This document shows positions 8,464-14,003 of a stretch of 34,725 nucleotides of DNA, in pieces; positions within the stretch are counted from its first letter, which is position 1, and each line of letters opens with the position of its first letter. The notes under the pieces are model-generated. The model had not been told where the DNA came from and did not search any database. It was given only the letters and a program-made list of their open reading frames with translations. The translations under genes and the position numbers were made by a program. Origin of the DNA: an uncultured Caulobacterales bacterium (GTDB taxonomy: Bacteria; Pseudomonadota; Alphaproteobacteria; Caulobacterales; Maricaulaceae); the NCBI GenBank assembly GCA_938001915.1, contig CALLBD010000102.1, forward strand, positions 1 to 34,725, in the 5' to 3' direction.

Positions 8464-10557
8464 CTATTGTCCCAGCGTCTCTTCTAATACGCTAAAACTG
8501 AGGGTTTGGGGCAGGACCAAACCCATCACATCATCGTGAGATGCTGGGAAAGCTAGGTATAATGGAACGCCGGCTCGGCCGTAGCGTTCCAATTCTGCTG
8601 CAATCTTGGCGTCCCTATTCGTCCAATCCGCGATAAGGAATGCGGTATTGGTGCGTTCGAATAAGGCCTGGGTGCGGTCCGTTTTCAGAACAAGCTGTTC
8701 ATTGACTTTACAGGTCACACACCAGGCGGCGGTAAAATCGACAAAAACGGGACGCCCTTGCGCCCGCAATTCTGCGACGCGTTCAGGGGACCACACCTCT
8801 GAATCTAGGACTGCAGCCTTTACGTCTGCTGCGCCCGTGGACAGGGTCAGAGGAAGCGCGGCCGCGCCGAGTGCGACAATAAGCGCCAGCCCTTTCGCAA
8901 AGCCTGAACCCCGCCGAAACACCCATATGGCAAACCCCGCCAACAGCATTGCAATCAGCAAAAGCCCTGTCCCATTCGCGCCCGTCTGCAGAATTAAAAC
9001 CCAGACCAACCAAATTGCAGCAGCGAACATGGGAAAAGCCAGCACCTGCCGGAAGGTTTCCATCCAGGGTCCTGGCTTGGGTAATTTTGCCAGCAATCCT
9101 GGTATATATCCGAGCAAGAGAAATGGCAGGGCAAAGCCTAAGCCTAAGGCGAGGAACACGATAAGGGTCGTTAGAGCAGGCTGCGCGAGCGCATAGCCAA
9201 CTGCGCCTGCCATGAAGGGCGCGGTACAAGGCGTCGCAACAACAACCGCGAGCACGCCCGTAAAGAAAGACCCCGATAAACCGCCGCGTGCGGTCAGACC
9301 TTGACCCGCGCCTTGTAAGCGGCTGCCAAATTCAAACAATCCCAATAGGTTTAAGCCAATCACGAAAAGCAACAGCGCCAATATGCCAACGACTTTGGGC
9401 GATTGGAGCTGAAAGCCCCAGCCAATTTGTGCGCCTGCGGCTTTGAAGGCAATCAGGCCGGCCGCCAATAGAGCAAATGTCACGAGCACGCCGCCCGTAT
9501 AAGCCCAAGCGCCCCGACGCGCCGCGGCACGCTCGCCATGTGCGGTCTTGGCGAGGCTAAGGGCTTTGAGGGAAATAATTGGGAAAACACAGGGCATGAG
9601 ATTTAAAATCAAGCCGCCCAACAGCGCGCCAAACGCCGCCGCCCACAGCCCCATAGAGGGCCCTGAGATGGACGGCGCTCCGATATCGAGCGCGGCGTTT
9701 GTCGCGACCGTCACAACCTCGCCGCGGGTCTCCCCGTCAAGCGTATATGTCAAGACGCCTTGAACCGTCTCCGCAATGCCATTCGCCCAGAGAAATTCAG
9801 GAGCGCTCATAAGGCCAATACCCGTTTTACCCAGACGGAAACTTTGCGGCGTACTATGGCCCAACACGCCTTGGTCAAAGGGGAAGAAATAAGCACCGCT
9901 AATGGTGCCGTCTGGGAGATTTGTGAAAGTCAGCGAGAGGGTCTCATTCGCAAGCTCGGCCGCGCCCCTAACACTGCCAGGGCGCGGACTACTCAGAACG
10001 GCCGCTTGAATTTGCGGGCCCCAGATGACGTCTTCTATAGGCTCGCCCACCTCTAAATCTAGTGACAGCTGGCCTTCCTCAGGAATGCAAATATCCGCGC
10101 ACACAAGGTAATAAAAATCGAGGACAAAAGAGAGCCTGTCGCCGTCTTGTGCCGAATTTGGCACAGTCATTTCCACCGGAAAAAGCGGGGCACCCTCAAA
10201 ACCGTAATTAACGATAGGGCCCGTTGGTGTAGGATAAGGCAAAGGCCAAGCGATTGGCCCAGCCTCTACGCCAGCGGGCAGCGCCCAAGTCAGCTGGACG
10301 GGTTCACCGCTATCACCCGGATTGCGCCAATAAGTGTGCCAGCCCTCGTCCAGCTCAGTGCGCAAAGCAATCCAAACCGTCTCGCCTGGCGCCACCCTAT
10401 CCAAAGAGGACACAAGAGACGCCGTCACCTTCCCGGTATCTAGCGTTTCCGTCTGACGGCCAAATGCGGTGGCCGCAAAAGACACGACCAACAAAAAAGA
10501 AAGCACCAGCCGAAATAATGATAACCGCATCCAAGACGAAAAGCTGATAGCGTGCAT
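8464..10557 (-). CDS. DsbD/ScsB-family thiol:disulfide interchange protein
   Basis: The 697-residue inner-membrane protein passes electrons from cytoplasmic thioredoxin to periplasmic thiol proteins. Its order is: signal peptide or anchor (10-33); a periplasmic DsbC-like N-domain with the pair Cys153/Cys157 in YYLVCADICIPEEG; a CcdA-type membrane region with NLMPCVFP (Cys323) and ATPCTAPF (Cys444), the two transmembrane redox cysteines; and a C-terminal thioredoxin domain with WCVTC (Cys613/Cys616). All three redox pairs are intact. The long N-domain with this motif is closer to ScsB/DipZ proteins than to E. coli DsbD. GGAG lies about nine bases before the first ATG. It heads an operon with the redoxin and is preceded on the same strand by the remnant of an RND pump gene. 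Confidence 0.93.
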   Translation of the reverse strand: MHAISFSSWMRLSLFRLVLSFLLVVSFAATAFGRQTETLDTGKVTASLVSSLDRVAPGETVWIALRTELDEGWHTYWRNPGDSGEPVQLTWALPAGVEAGPIAWPLPYPTPTGPIVNYGFEGAPLFPVEMTVPNSAQDGDRLSFVLDFYYLVCADICIPEEGQLSLDLEVGEPIEDVIWGPQIQAAVLSSPRPGSVRGAAELANETLSLTFTNLPDGTISGAYFFPFDQGVLGHSTPQSFRLGKTGIGLMSAPEFLWANGIAETVQGVLTYTLDGETRGEVVTVATNAALDIGAPSISGPSMGLWAAAFGALLGGLILNLMPCVFPIISLKALSLAKTAHGERAAARRGAWAYTGGVLVTFALLAAGLIAFKAAGAQIGWGFQLQSPKVVGILALLLFVIGLNLLGLFEFGSRLQGAGQGLTARGGLSGSFFTGVLAVVVATPCTAPFMAGAVGYALAQPALTTLIVFLALGLGFALPFLLLGYIPGLLAKLPKPGPWMETFRQVLAFPMFAAAIWLVWVLILQTGANGTGLLLIAMLLAGFAIWVFRRGSGFAKGLALIVALGAAALPLTLSTGAADVKAAVLDSEVWSPERVAELRAQGRPVFVDFTAAWCVTCKVNEQLVLKTDRTQALFERTNTAFLIADWTNRDAKIAAELERYGRAGVPLYLAFPASHDDVMGLVLPQTLSFSVLEETLGQ

Positions 10558-10593: not shown

Positions 10594-10917
10594 TTATTGT
10601 TTCAATTTACGTGCGACCGTTTGCGGGGAAACAGATCCGCGCGAAATCAAATCATAGGCGGTCGGCACAATAAAAACAATTATCACGGCTGCCGCTAATA
10701 TACCAAATAAAATTACCACGCCGATTGCCGCCCCGCCCCCTGACGAGAGGATAAGCGGAACACGGCCAGCGGCGGCAGGAAGGCCAATCATGTCTAATTA
10801 CTAAAAGCCGGGCGAGCATCCCGATACTTATTATCTAAAAACGGCCGTCGTGAGAATAGGTGTGATTTTGGCGCGACATCCACTTGAAGTTTCTGCCGCG
10901 CCGCGAGAGTTCAGCTC
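10594..10917 (-). pseudogene. Remnant of an RND-family efflux transporter (3' end)
   Basis: The last 65 codons (start at 10791) read GRVPLILSSGGG, then AIGVVILFG and FIVPTAYDLI, the normal C-terminal helix pair of AcrB/HAE1-type RND pumps. Further upstream in the same frame comes AKITPILTTAVF, which fits the preceding RND motif (RPILMT). The two pieces are separated by 15 codons (about 10795-10839) that include four stops and have no RND match, as if a 45-base piece had been inserted or that stretch had decayed. Before about 10917 nothing RND-like remains. A full pump is over 1000 residues, so this is a scar of a deletion. The assignment rests on motif recognition only. Confidence 0.6.
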
Positions 10918-10925
10918 GTTTCATC

Positions 10926-10951
10926 AACGCAGGAAATCAATTTTTTGTTCC
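10926..10951 (-). promoter_or_regulatory. EcfG-type promoter match, leftward
   Basis: On the minus strand GGAAC (10951-10947) is followed after 17 bases by CGTT (10929-10926). This matches the alphaproteobacterial EcfG/ECF15 pattern GGAAC-N16/17-CGTT. It points toward the RND remnant and, about 360 bases on, the dsbD-like gene. A hairpin followed by CTTTT in the 45-base insert (about 10803-10823) could end a short transcript instead. The sequence match is exact; activity is inferred. Confidence 0.55.
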
Positions 10952-11028: not shown

Positions 11029-11053
11029 GGAACAGATTACGCCGCAGCCCGTT
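11029..11053 (+). promoter_or_regulatory. EcfG-type general-stress promoter for the YqjD/YqjE-like pair
   Basis: GGAAC (11029-11033), 16 bases, then CGTT (11050-11053). This is an exact match to the EcfG (SigT/RpoE2-like) consensus, about 52 bases before the ATG of the DUF883 gene. Transcription would start near 11060. Placement before a gene of a family known to be stress-induced supports it. Confidence 0.75.
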
Positions 11054-11104: not shown

Positions 11105-11410
11105 ATGGCAACTGCCAAATCGACGAATAAAAAGGTTGTAGCCCTCAATCCAGATGTGTCTGAGCAAATTCAGGCCCTACGTGAAGACGTCGCGCTCCTC
11201 GCGAGCGCCGTGAAGGTGCAGACAAAAACGAAAGTTGCGGACACGACGTCAACTGTCAAAACTGCAACGACAGAAAAAGCGGAAATGGCGAAAGCTAAAT
11301 ATGACGAAATCACGTCGCAAGCCGAGACCTCCATCAAGGAGAACCCACTGACATCGGTGGCTATCGCTGCAGGCGCGGGCTTGCTCTTAGGCGCGATTTT
11401 ACGTCGTTAG
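11105..11410 (+). CDS. DUF883 / ElaB-YqjD-like small membrane protein
   Basis: A 101-residue protein. The start is the ATG at 11105, preceded by AAAAGGAG at good spacing; an upstream in-frame ATG at 11027 lies inside the promoter and is rejected. Residues 1-75 are charged and helical (SEQIQALREDVALLASAV, then a Lys/Thr/Ala-rich stretch). The C-terminus is the family signature ENPLTSVAIAAGAGLLLGAILRR, one membrane helix ending in Arg-Arg. E. coli YqjD and ElaB are tail-anchored, bind ribosomes and rise in stationary phase; a similar membrane-tethering role under stress is inferred. The next gene starts four bases after the stop, and an EcfG-type promoter lies upstream. Confidence 0.85.
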   Translation: MATAKSTNKKVVALNPDVSEQIQALREDVALLASAVKVQTKTKVADTTSTVKTATTEKAEMAKAKYDEITSQAETSIKENPLTSVAIAAGAGLLLGAILRR

Positions 11411-11414
11411 GGCC

Positions 11415-11849
11415 GTGAAGCTTCTCGGCACTCTCATAAGCCTGGCCCCCTTTTTATTGAGGGGGTCAAGCCAAAAGTCAGTCTCACGGATTGTAAAGGG
11501 GCTCGCTACGGGCCTTTTAGGGATGCTTGGGCTGATTTTCATCGCCGTGGCAACATTTAGAGTCCTTTTGGAAGCCTACGGCGCAACAATCGCATGTTTC
11601 GTCATGGGACTGCTCTGTATGTCCCTCGCTTTCATCCTAAGGTTACTCCCTGACAAATCGAAGAAACGGGCCCTCCGGTCTCGACCCGGCGCGAAACCAT
11701 CCGATCCCCTGTCATCAGCCCTGCCAAGTTCGCTGATAGACGATGAAACCATTGAACAGCTGCAATCTCGCATCATTGAGAACCCGTTGGCAACGACCTC
11801 AACCGCCTTTGCAGTGGGGCTAACCCTATCAAGCGGCGTCATCAAATAA
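11415..11849 (+). CDS. YqjE-like (phage-holin-like fold) membrane protein
   Basis: A 144-residue protein from a GTG at 11415, four bases after the DUF883 gene. Two membrane helices are clear (about residues 32-50 and 57-78: LLGMLGLIFIAVATFRVLL, then ACFVMGLLCMSLAFILRLL). A basic Lys/Arg stretch and a soluble C-terminal tail with IENPLATTSTAFAVG follow. That tail echoes the ENPL motif of the preceding protein. The position after a YqjD-like gene and the paired helices match the yqjD-yqjE arrangement of enterobacteria. Sequence identity to YqjE is not obvious by eye, so this is an architectural call. It shares the upstream EcfG promoter. Confidence 0.65.
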   Translation: MKLLGTLISLAPFLLRGSSQKSVSRIVKGLATGLLGMLGLIFIAVATFRVLLEAYGATIACFVMGLLCMSLAFILRLLPDKSKKRALRSRPGAKPSDPLSSALPSSLIDDETIEQLQSRIIENPLATTSTAFAVGLTLSSGVIK

Positions 11850-11933
11850 CGCTCTTTTCTTTTTTAAAATTTTTAAACCCTGACAAAACACATTCGGTTT
11901 GCATCAGATTTTGCGTAAACGCTACAGATAAAC

Positions 11934-12062
11934 AAAAAAGCCACTCTCAGAGAGAGTGGCTTTTGCGCTGAGTATAAGGGGAAGGGTCTCAGCGAACGGT
12001 AGTAAGGGGAAAACTACCTATATGTGTTTAGCGCCGGAAAGGTTCACTCGGGCTTACACAGG
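11934..12062 (-). ncRNA. Candidate stress-induced small RNA with C-rich loops (GsrN-like)
   Basis: The minus strand holds a complete small-RNA unit of about 129 bases. An EcfG-type promoter lies at 12094-12069, so the 5' end is near 12062. A first long hairpin may pair TGTGT with ACACA (12060-12024). Next is a hairpin with stem GGTAGT/ACTACC (12018-11998) and loop UUUCCCCUU. A third has the seven-pair stem CGCTGAG/CTCAGCG (11994-11966) and a 15-base loop containing CCCUUCCCCUU. The last is a 13-pair terminator hairpin with a T-run. No ORF fits. The repeated CCCCUU loops resemble seed loops of alphaproteobacterial sRNAs such as Caulobacter GsrN, which SigT controls and which uses a C-rich loop to pair with mRNAs. 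The structure is seen in sequence; function and GsrN homology are inferred. Confidence 0.78.
11936..11964 (-). terminator. Intrinsic terminator of the small RNA (possibly bidirectional)
   Basis: Thirteen perfect pairs (AAAAGCCACTCTC with GAGAGTGGCTTTT) around a three-base loop. On the minus strand the stem runs into TTTTTTGTTT, a good U-tract. On the plus strand only four T follow, but it may also stop transcripts from the YqjE-like gene, which ends 86 bases upstream. Confidence 0.9.
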
Positions 12063-12068
12063 TCGTCT

Positions 12069-12094
12069 AACGCAGCGGGTCGCTGATTGGTTCC
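12069..12094 (-). promoter_or_regulatory. EcfG-type promoter of the small RNA
   Basis: On the minus strand GGAAC (12094-12090), 17 bases, CGTT (12072-12069): an exact match to the EcfG/ECF15 pattern, immediately upstream of the C-rich-loop small RNA. This is the third such match within 1.2 kb. Confidence 0.72.
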
Positions 12095-12212
12095 CAAAAA
12101 AATAAGTTTTTTTGGTGGCACATGTTAAACGTCAAATTAAAATTACGAATTCGATGAAACGATGTGGTATTTTAAGCGTTATTAAGCGCGGGTCCAAGGC
12201 AAAGGGGTTTTT

Positions 12213-14003
12213 CTGTTTAAAATTACACATTGGTTTTTTGGGATAGTTTGCGGGCTGGCCGTCGGCTTCTCCGCGCCTATGGCGCATGCAAACGAACCGC
12301 TCGCCGCTATTGAAGGCGAAATGCCTAAGGATCTGAAAACCTTGCTCACTGAAGTTTTGGGTAAGGTGGAAAGCTCACCACGCTCACTCGCGCAAGCGCG
12401 CCGCCGCGTCATGAAAGCTAAAGAAAGCGCAACCTCCGTTATGCGGTCTCAAGGCTATTATGGCGCAGATATCGACGCCAGAGTTATCGAGCCGCCTGTC
12501 AGTGCTGACCTAAGTAAACGCCGAGCACACCGCCCTGTTTTGGTCATTTCACCTGGGCCGCAATTCAAGGTCAGCTCAATTGACATTATTTTTGAGGGAG
12601 ACGCTCCCGATATTTCGCAGGATGCGCTTGATCGGCTCACGCTAAAACCCGGCGACATCGCGCTTGCGGCCGTCGTTGTCGCAGATGAATTACAAACCGT
12701 GAATTATCTTAACGCCCATGGCTTCCCTGATGCGAGCGCGGAAAAGCGCGCCGTTATTGTCGATCACGAAACCAAAACCATGTCTGTGGCATATAAAATC
12801 AATGCCGGACAGAAAACGCGTTTTGGCGAGATTAAGCAAACAGGCACCGCCTATATCGTCAAAAGTTGGCCCCGCATGGTTGCACCGTTCAAGCCGGGCG
12901 ATGAATTCGACATTCGTGAGATCAATGCGCTCGCCTCTCGGGTGATTGGGACGGGTGTGTTTGACGGGGCAACAGCAATTTTGTCTGAGGACGCCACACC
13001 CAATGATGACGGGACTGTCACACGCGACGTTATCTTGAATGTCGAACAAGGCGCCATTAACACAATCAATGGAGAGATTGGCTTTTCGACAACAGATGGT
13101 ACGGGCGTGGATGTATCTTATGAGCGCCGGAATTTTATCGGATATGCGCAAACCTTGACCTTATCCTCAAGCCTCAAAACCAATCAAATAAGATTTGGGG
13201 TCGATTATAATATCCCCTTTGCTTGGCGCGCGGACCGAGAATTAGACTTGAACGCGGAAGTTGCGCGCGAGGATACAGAAGCTTTGTCGGGCGAGCGTAT
13301 CGGCGCGAATGGCCTCATGACACAGAAAACATCAAAAAAATTTAGGGTTAGCGCGGGCTTTGGTCTGGAAGCCTCCAGATTCAGAGAAAGCGGAGAAGAT
13401 GTCACCTCCTACCTAATCGACGGTATCGGGCGCGCTGTTTATGACTCCCGGAATAGTCTTTTCGACCCCGAACTTGGCTATCTTCTAGAGGCTGAACTGA
13501 TGCCCACTTATAATTTTGGGGATGAAGCAGGTTATTTCACGACAGCGACTTTAGATGGGAGCACCTATCGGCGTATCTCCGATAAATTCGTCGTCGCAGG
13601 ACGGATGAAAATTGGTTCTATTATCGGAAGTGATTTTGACTCCATTGCGCTCAACCGACGTTTTTTTGCAGGCGGCGGCGGGTCTGTTCGCGGATTTGAA
13701 TATCAAACTATCTCGCCCGTGGATGGGGATGGGGAATTAATTGGCGGACGCTCTATCTCTGAGGTCGGAGCCGAGCTCAGGTATAAAGGTGATAGCCCGA
13801 TTGGGTTTGCTGCCTTTGTCGATGCGGGCTCCGTTACGGAAAAAGAATTTCCAGACTTTAGCGACATTCGTGCAGGCGCTGGCATCGGTGTGCGCTATTA
13901 CACTAGCTTCGCGCCCTTACGGGTTGATATCGCGACACCAATAAATAAGCGCCCCGGAGATAGCGCTATTCAGCTGTATATAAGTATCGGGCAGTCGTTC
14001 TAA
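12213..14003 (+). CDS. tamA: TamA, Omp85-family outer-membrane protein
   Basis: An Omp85/BamA-superfamily protein with N-terminal POTRA-like repeats (the FKVSSIDIIFEG and GEIKQTG regions) and a 16-strand-type barrel. The barrel has the lid-lock motif VRGFEYQ (13686-13706) and a C-terminus ending in Phe (YISIGQSF). TamA works with TamB in inserting or transporting components to the outer membrane. The first ATG (12279) would cut off the signal peptide. In frame upstream lies FKITHWFFGIVCGLAVG ending in AHA|N, but there is no ATG, GTG or TTG between the stop at 12183 and 12279. I place the start at CTG 12213, five bases after a strong AAAGGGG; see findings for alternatives. The stop overlaps the tamB ATG (TAATG). 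The family is certain, the start is not. Confidence 0.88.
   Translation: MFKITHWFFGIVCGLAVGFSAPMAHANEPLAAIEGEMPKDLKTLLTEVLGKVESSPRSLAQARRRVMKAKESATSVMRSQGYYGADIDARVIEPPVSADLSKRRAHRPVLVISPGPQFKVSSIDIIFEGDAPDISQDALDRLTLKPGDIALAAVVVADELQTVNYLNAHGFPDASAEKRAVIVDHETKTMSVAYKINAGQKTRFGEIKQTGTAYIVKSWPRMVAPFKPGDEFDIREINALASRVIGTGVFDGATAILSEDATPNDDGTVTRDVILNVEQGAINTINGEIGFSTTDGTGVDVSYERRNFIGYAQTLTLSSSLKTNQIRFGVDYNIPFAWRADRELDLNAEVAREDTEALSGERIGANGLMTQKTSKKFRVSAGFGLEASRFRESGEDVTSYLIDGIGRAVYDSRNSLFDPELGYLLEAELMPTYNFGDEAGYFTTATLDGSTYRRISDKFVVAGRMKIGSIIGSDFDSIALNRRFFAGGGGSVRGFEYQTISPVDGDGELIGGRSISEVGAELRYKGDSPIGFAAFVDAGSVTEKEFPDFSDIRAGAGIGVRYYTSFAPLRVDIATPINKRPGDSAIQLYISIGQSF

Follow-up and report, generated by a model that had tools for sequence, protein, structure and literature searches.

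A candidate EcfG-dependent small RNA with two identical C-rich loop motifs in an uncultured Caulobacterales bacterium

The minus strand of the window (the whole analysed stretch, 34,725 nucleotides) carries an EcfG-type promoter box, a segment with a pronounced fold and exposed C-rich loops, and an intrinsic terminator, all of them in an EcfG context (Table 1). The unit is probably an EcfG-dependent small RNA, a two-seed variant of the C-rich-loop kind, and is put forward as a candidate without detected relatives. The reading that we favor, with somewhat better than even confidence, is that of a free-standing gene for a trans-acting, lineage-restricted small RNA of the EcfG general stress response (GSR), of the anti-Shine-Dalgarno type; by analogy with known families, it would be transcribed in an EcfG-dependent manner and would repress its targets through the loops acting as seeds, possibly with the involvement of Hfq.

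Table 1. Positions of the predicted small RNA, its parts, and the neighboring features in the window
Feature	Position	Strand	Basis
EcfG (general stress sigma) promoter box GGAAC-N17-CGTT	12069..12094	-	Sequence; three boxes cluster within 1.2 kb
Predicted small RNA, about 129 nt, inferred start site	11934..12062	-	Fold z -7.0; no Rfam family at gathering score
5' hairpin, UGUGU/ACACA plus inner stem, loop with weaker CU tract ACCUUUC	12023..12060	-	Fold
Hairpin 1, stem GGUAGU/ACUACC, loop UUUCCCCUU, predicted seed	11998..12018	-	Fold, unpaired probability
Hairpin 2, stem CGCUGAG/CUCAGCG, loop ACCCUUCCCCUUAUA, predicted seed	11966..11994	-	Fold, unpaired probability
Intrinsic terminator, 13 pairs, U6	11934..11964	-	Sequence and fold; stem also on + strand
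EcfG box GGAAC-N16-CGTT before the DUF883 gene, inside a mechanical N-terminal ORF extension	11029..11053	+	Sequence; relatives
DUF883-type gene	11105..11410	+	Pfam DUF883_C
Small membrane-protein-like gene after DUF883	11415..11849	+	Pfam: no match
Third EcfG box GGAAC-N17-CGTT, divergent from the DUF883 box	10926..10951	-	Sequence

Direct reading of the minus strand bore out the exact GGAAC-N17-CGTT promoter of the initial annotation, with GGAAC at 12094-12090, 17 intervening bases, and CGTT at 12072-12069. The segment that follows does measure 129 nt as annotated, but it begins at the seventh base past the box (12062), not about ten bases on. The EcfG motif has been given as GGAAC-N16-CGTT for Rhizobium etli (PMC3892343) and as GGAAC-N17-20-GTT for Sphingomonas (PMC6599016; here and below, papers cited by PMC number are drawn on for the accessible part of their text). 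Since GGAAC-N16/17-CGTT had fewer matches in the 2.6-Mb assembly (33) than the reversed control (59), the motif by itself proves nothing, and two of the five boxes in the window fall in coding sequence (8564/8590). The three boxes outside likely coding sequence all lie within 1.2 kb (10951 minus, 11029 plus, and 12094 minus), for which a Poisson P of about 4e-4 was obtained, calculated after the cluster had been seen. In 712,600 bases, comprising the window and 40 GSR stretches from 38 of the 39 genomes (among 60) in which NepR was found, the exact box occurred 184 times, while 150 permuted boxes averaged 12 occurrences and reached 36 at most; the EcfG motif is thus real in this group. The box of the unit is credible through its context, not through the motif alone. 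A sigma-70-like hexamer pair (9 of 12 positions) lies just upstream of it, at 12128-12099 minus, and could be an alternative or second promoter of the predicted RNA.

The fold of 11933-12062 had an energy of -46.4 kcal/mol, against -24.1 (standard deviation, 3.2) for dinucleotide shuffles, none of 200 being as good (z = -7.0). The fold signal is not all due to the terminator, since z was still -3.9 for the first 98 nt, which lack it, and -5.0 for the two C-loop hairpins alone. The plus strand showed a lower fold energy (-49.2) with a weaker z (-5.2); the strand was assigned as minus because of the box and the longer T run. The segment forms four hairpins, the last of which is the intrinsic terminator, and their predicted stems and loops match the earlier description. 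The repeated C-rich loops were also borne out: the octamer UUCCCCUU is present in both, and both copies were predicted to be unpaired with a probability of 0.99-1.00 across five assumed start sites. In composition-preserving shuffles of the loops, an octamer common to the two was obtained in 746 of 200,000 cases (0.4%). The annotated 13-pair terminator followed by U6 is correct as to its pairs (stem 11964-11936, 3-nt loop), but four A-U pairs consume four of the six Us, so that a full U6 tail leaves nine pairs. Terminator-like sites in 11400-12500 did not exceed shuffles (1 versus 1.6). The terminator is possibly used from both sides, its plus-strand copy following the DUF883-side gene that ends at 11849.

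The description of an sRNA-like unit complete in itself, made up of a box, a folded segment, and a terminator, thus held good. A descriptor combining the box, a C-loop hairpin, and a terminator brought up three units from the 184 real boxes, namely a GsrN-like gene of the sister family (group f3), one in genome G212, and that of the window, versus four from 1,842 permuted-box sites in the same 712,600 bases. The chance expectation from 184 boxes is about 0.4, and we consider the excess supportive, not overwhelming. Because the descriptor is insensitive, bringing up three of the five GsrN stretches with one mismatch allowed (one of them only via a wrong upstream box) and one of the five when strict, its silence in relatives is weak evidence. 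These figures bear on the reading that there is no gene here and that a chance EcfG box happens to lie upstream of the terminator of a convergent operon, with fortuitous hairpins. We consider this unlikely: the clustering of the boxes, the z of the hairpins without the terminator, the rarity of a shared loop octamer among shuffles, and the excess of units over expectation all argue against it, even though it would accommodate the lack of conservation in the relatives searched, the lack of genome-wide enrichment of the motif, the two further boxes in coding sequence, and a terminator that may serve the plus-strand operon.

The favored reading, a gene of the EcfG response, is consistent with the neighborhood. 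A DUF883 match was obtained in 19 of 36 genomes, own included. Among 14 relatives, the best of the 18 other DUF883 genomes after the four weakest had been left out, 13 have an EcfG-type box no more than 260 bases upstream of the DUF883 gene, and the 14th is truncated by the end of its contig; the pattern was loose (GGAAC-N15..18-[CG]-GTT), and 12 of the 13 read CGTT. A gene of similar size to that after DUF883 in the window occupies the same place in G016, G015, and G008. The nepR gene lies within 3.5 kb of DUF883 in 8 of the 11 other same-genus genomes with both genes, and in the remaining three the two are on different contigs, as they are in the assembly studied, where the NepR gene is on contig C86 and the unit on contig C102. 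One contig of G016 contains, in order, nepR, ecfG, DUF883, the membrane gene, tamA, and tamB (named by eye apart from NepR, DUF883, and TamA), and in G015 nepR is about 9.5 kb from tamA. With DUF883 and tamA near nepR in relatives, the window appears to hold the outer portion of an ancestral GSR cluster.

Several side observations concern the same region. In G016 (L087 2184-12000), a single cluster containing several EcfG boxes comprises DUF883, tamA, and tamB as well as the GSR genes and a dps-like gene, which ties outer-membrane assembly genes to the stress locus. The box at 10926-10951 in the window faces a small membrane-protein-like open reading frame of 65 aa (10594-10791, minus) with no Pfam match. 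On contig C86 (L086), two EcfG boxes overlap head to head (9091-9116 plus and 9107-9083 minus) around GGAACCAAATTGGTTCC, in the interval from nepR to a phyR-like gene; boxes of the form GGAAC...GGTTCC are found repeatedly in relatives' GSR stretches (L098, L099, and L100 among others), and L095 has GGAAC...GGGTTCC.

We then looked for homologues of the unit. The conservation of loops and promoter expected of close relatives was found in none of the relatives searched, be it by blastn, patterns, a covariance model, or inspection of tamA loci. By blastn against 40 genomes including its own, the unit was recovered at full length from its own only; 17 of the 40, own included, gave something at E<=1, the others being pieces of 16-35 nt, many of them at the terminator. 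The loop pattern TTCCCCTT-N12..42-TTCCCCTT occurred in 8 of 200 genomes and a box plus CCCCTT pattern in 12 of 18 (own included in both), and the unit scan of the loci so obtained returned the own unit only. A covariance model made from the single sequence of the unit (R1), applied with stricter filters to 60 genomes, matched in four of them, own included; the other three matches (E, 0.15-0.77) gave no unit in the unit scan, so that none of the 59 other genomes contained a convincing match. Over 46 sequence sources, R1 gave 10 matches, three of which were inspected. One was the unit itself; L088:6272-6141 (E, 5e-4) was rejected, since it comprises the terminator of a phyR-like gene and the 3' end of that gene; and a match at E 1e-3 was the plus-strand copy of the unit's own terminator. 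The other seven had E values of 0.07 to 3.2. An origin of the unit from the 3' end of phyR was likewise dropped, as there was no match to the GSR stretch of the own assembly.

The unit was also absent from five contigs with a related tamA (one from an uncultured Robiginitomaculum, two from Hellea, and two from uncultured Caulobacterales), and synteny upstream of tamA revealed no unit in the plus-strand tamA loci of relatives; the unit scan covered both flanks of the tamA loci, including those on the minus strand. Since the nearest TamA proteins are only 68% (G004) and 71% (L205) identical, a young or fast-changing RNA would escape detection. Phages, plasmids, and viral contigs, searched partly by one exact pattern, gave no match to the unit. 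Rfam 15 assigned no family at gathering score to the unit or anywhere else in the window; the best of eight subthreshold matches in 11500-12500 was RefA9, with 30.4 of 49 bits, at the plus-strand terminator.

The initial annotation had called the unit reminiscent of Caulobacter GsrN, and in this the EcfG-type box, the exposed C-rich loops, and a GsrN-like way of working stood, while homology, which it could not show, was not supported here either. GsrN is typically located near GSR genes, has six consecutive Cs in its 5' loop, and pairs through this C-rich loop with G-rich target sequences (PMC5869019). A descriptor containing no query sequence picked out genes of G029, G047, and G025 that lie near nepR and combine a C7 loop with an EcfG-type box and a terminator; we called them GsrN on account of these features, which are those of PMC5869019. 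The covariance model built from these three feature-recognized genes (R2), not from the Caulobacter crescentus gene, found all five f3 stretches at 79-136 bits; three of these had built the model, and G037 and G043 (79-80 bits) are independent of it. Over 41 sources, R2 gave no match to the window at E<=10; its next best matches were L122 (24.5 bits; E, 0.02) and L117 (20.8 bits), both uninspected, besides a reverse-strand piece of L089. Applied to the unit alone, it scored 14 bits (E, 1e-3 for 201 bases), from the outer stem and the terminator only. The proposed check by a GsrN covariance model thus came out negative.

A GsrN orthologue diverged beyond recognition and moved away from the GSR locus along with DUF883 and tamA, whose mechanism would overlap that of the favored reading, would have the box, the C-rich loop, and the terminator seen here, would suit the proximity of DUF883, and in two genomes of tamA, to nepR, and would explain the 14 bits of the unit taken alone. 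We nevertheless judge it improbable, given that those bits come from no other part of the molecule, that the window goes unmatched, that the f3 genes have one C7 loop in a long stem instead of separate short hairpins, and that GSR stretches of the same family reach no more than the 24.5 bits of L122. A link between GsrN and its target katG was dropped as well, since no catalase-peroxidase protein (PF00141) was found in the assembly, which is about 90% complete. On its sequence, the unit is not detectably GsrN.

The G212 unit, from a genome of the same family, offers a parallel to that of the window. At L105:6542-6684, an EcfG box (6542) precedes an RNA with the main loop GCCCCCCAUGUCCCCCU, a fold z of -6.5, and a strong terminator, flanked by a dps-like gene on one side and by phyR and ecfG on the other (by eye; NepR by search). 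Shared with the unit of the window are the box, the C-rich loop, and the strong terminator; the G212 RNA sits beside GSR genes. It has both C tracts (C6 and C5) in one loop, whereas the unit has one tract in each of two hairpin loops. No match of the G212 RNA to R1 was obtained. At E<=0.01, its DNA gave matches in 46 of the 137 family genomes, a count that includes G212, and most of them were to the terminator; 6 of the 12 nonterminator matches were inspected and none was a like unit, and the genome of the window gave no match. On this evidence, the G212 RNA does not have a convincing homologue among the 137 family genomes. Tentatively, and with the odds in our view against it, one may suppose that in the Robiginitomaculum/Hellea-type family GsrN has been replaced by unrelated, fast-arising EcfG-driven RNAs that have converged on the display of C tracts in hairpin loops, the unit described here doubling the seed, which would let a single stress RNA engage two mRNAs or provide redundancy against envelope mRNAs whose ribosome-binding sites contain AAGGGGAA. 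If so, selection would keep the device, not the gene.

The possible targets were approached through the sequence AAGGGGAA: in the assembly, an ATG follows it at a distance of 0-16 nt in 20 places, versus 9 with the reversed control, and one of these 20 sites is the unit's own loop read on the complementary strand. Going by the reading frame and the upstream stop, we judged 6 of the 20 to be gene starts and 14 not. The six belong to a TonB-dependent receptor, a DUF3604 protein, an S9 peptidase, an aldehyde dehydrogenase, and two proteins without a Pfam match, one of them lipoprotein-like and the other secreted-looking; by eye, all but the aldehyde dehydrogenase have an exported or lipoprotein-like N terminus. 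These sites are suggestive, post hoc, of envelope control, and the signal is small and confounded by ordinary Shine-Dalgarno use. The tamA gene, transcribed away from the RNA, has AAGGGG at 12202-12207, with which the RNA could form only six pairs; a possible CTG start lies five bases further on, at 12213. As a side observation on tamA itself, its start may be this CTG, preceded by AAAGGGG, as a start at the first ATG (12279) would remove a signal-peptide-like stretch.

In the proposed mechanism, stress would free EcfG from NepR, and EcfG would transcribe the 129-nt RNA. At ribosome-binding sites, its two UUCCCCUU loops, each redundant with the other as a seed, would then pair with AAGGGG(AA) and would mostly block translation, plausibly that of envelope proteins. 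If the unit is transcribed, small-RNA control of the alphaproteobacterial general stress response would reach a lineage without GsrN in the stretches searched, and a clean two-loop RNA would be at hand for asking whether repeated C-rich seeds are redundant. The analysis also suggests that such stress RNAs may turn over too fast for sequence search and that the combination of promoter, loop, and terminator can find them.

Several known RNAs carry C-rich loops. The alpha-r14 RNAs have one C-rich motif in three hairpins (PMC10746234), and their members keep the loops while the stems vary (PMC10746234, PMC7143759); AbcR has two C-rich motifs (PMC7143759), and LhrC has three UCCC sites (PMC4132741). 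All of these loops pair with G-rich regions near ribosome-binding sites (PMC7143759, PMC10746234, PMC4132741). The suggestion that the double-loop arrangement is new thus fails as stated; the joining of repeated C-rich loops to an EcfG box was not found in the accessible text of the open-licence papers listed, and no paper on a Robiginitomaculum small RNA was found in that literature. The likeness to the alpha-r14/cuckoo RNAs, in which several hairpins with unlike stems present one C-rich loop motif, lies in the identical octamer of the two loops here (three in alpha-r14), whose stems are likewise unlike; the unit could be an RNA of that kind, in which copies of an anti-Shine-Dalgarno motif occupy several loops, taken over by an EcfG promoter. 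We give this little credence, as the motif is UUCCCCUU, the alpha-r14/cuckoo motif CCUCCUCCC and CCUCC are both absent, and no Rfam family matched at gathering score. The regulators differ too, as far as the accessible sources tell: NfeR1, of alpha-r14, is under LsrB/NtrC and CcsR is under RpoHI/RpoHII, whereas the unit has an EcfG-type box. CcsR1-4 belong to the cuckoo RNAs. A citation in PMC10253847 points the same way. A sponge or protein-titrating RNA, whose repeated, identical C-rich loops bind another RNA or a protein instead of mRNAs, would have a precedent in the documented sponging of small RNAs in Caulobacter (CrfA, PMC12559287), but such loops are a usual type of mRNA seed in the accessible literature, and we find this reading very improbable.

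Compared with these systems, a trans-acting small RNA of the EcfG response, as we favor it, resembles LhrC of Listeria and AbcR1/2 of rhizobia in its redundant C-rich sites suited to G-rich ribosome-binding regions; those RNAs have other regulators and hosts, and the unit has no Rfam match. By description only, its predicted EcfG control likens it to ReC64 of R. etli, a trans-encoded ncRNA directly under EcfG and beside phyR, with a length of 88 nt versus about 129 nt here (PMC3892343), and several RpoE2-linked small RNAs of S. meliloti have been tabulated (PMC7143759). EcfG-controlled ncRNAs and repeated C-rich loops are therefore each already known. With GsrN of C. crescentus (Caulobacteraceae), the unit shares the exposed C-rich loop, the terminator, a similar size, and the upstream EcfG/SigT-binding site, present here as GGAAC-N17-CGTT. 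It differs in having C4 in two mid-molecule hairpins, its 5'-most loop holding only ACCUUUC, and in that these hairpins are separate and short, whereas in the f3 GsrN genes the long stem with the C7 loop also encloses a second hairpin. A role in stress is expected here as in GsrN, and by its anatomy the unit could work in the same way.
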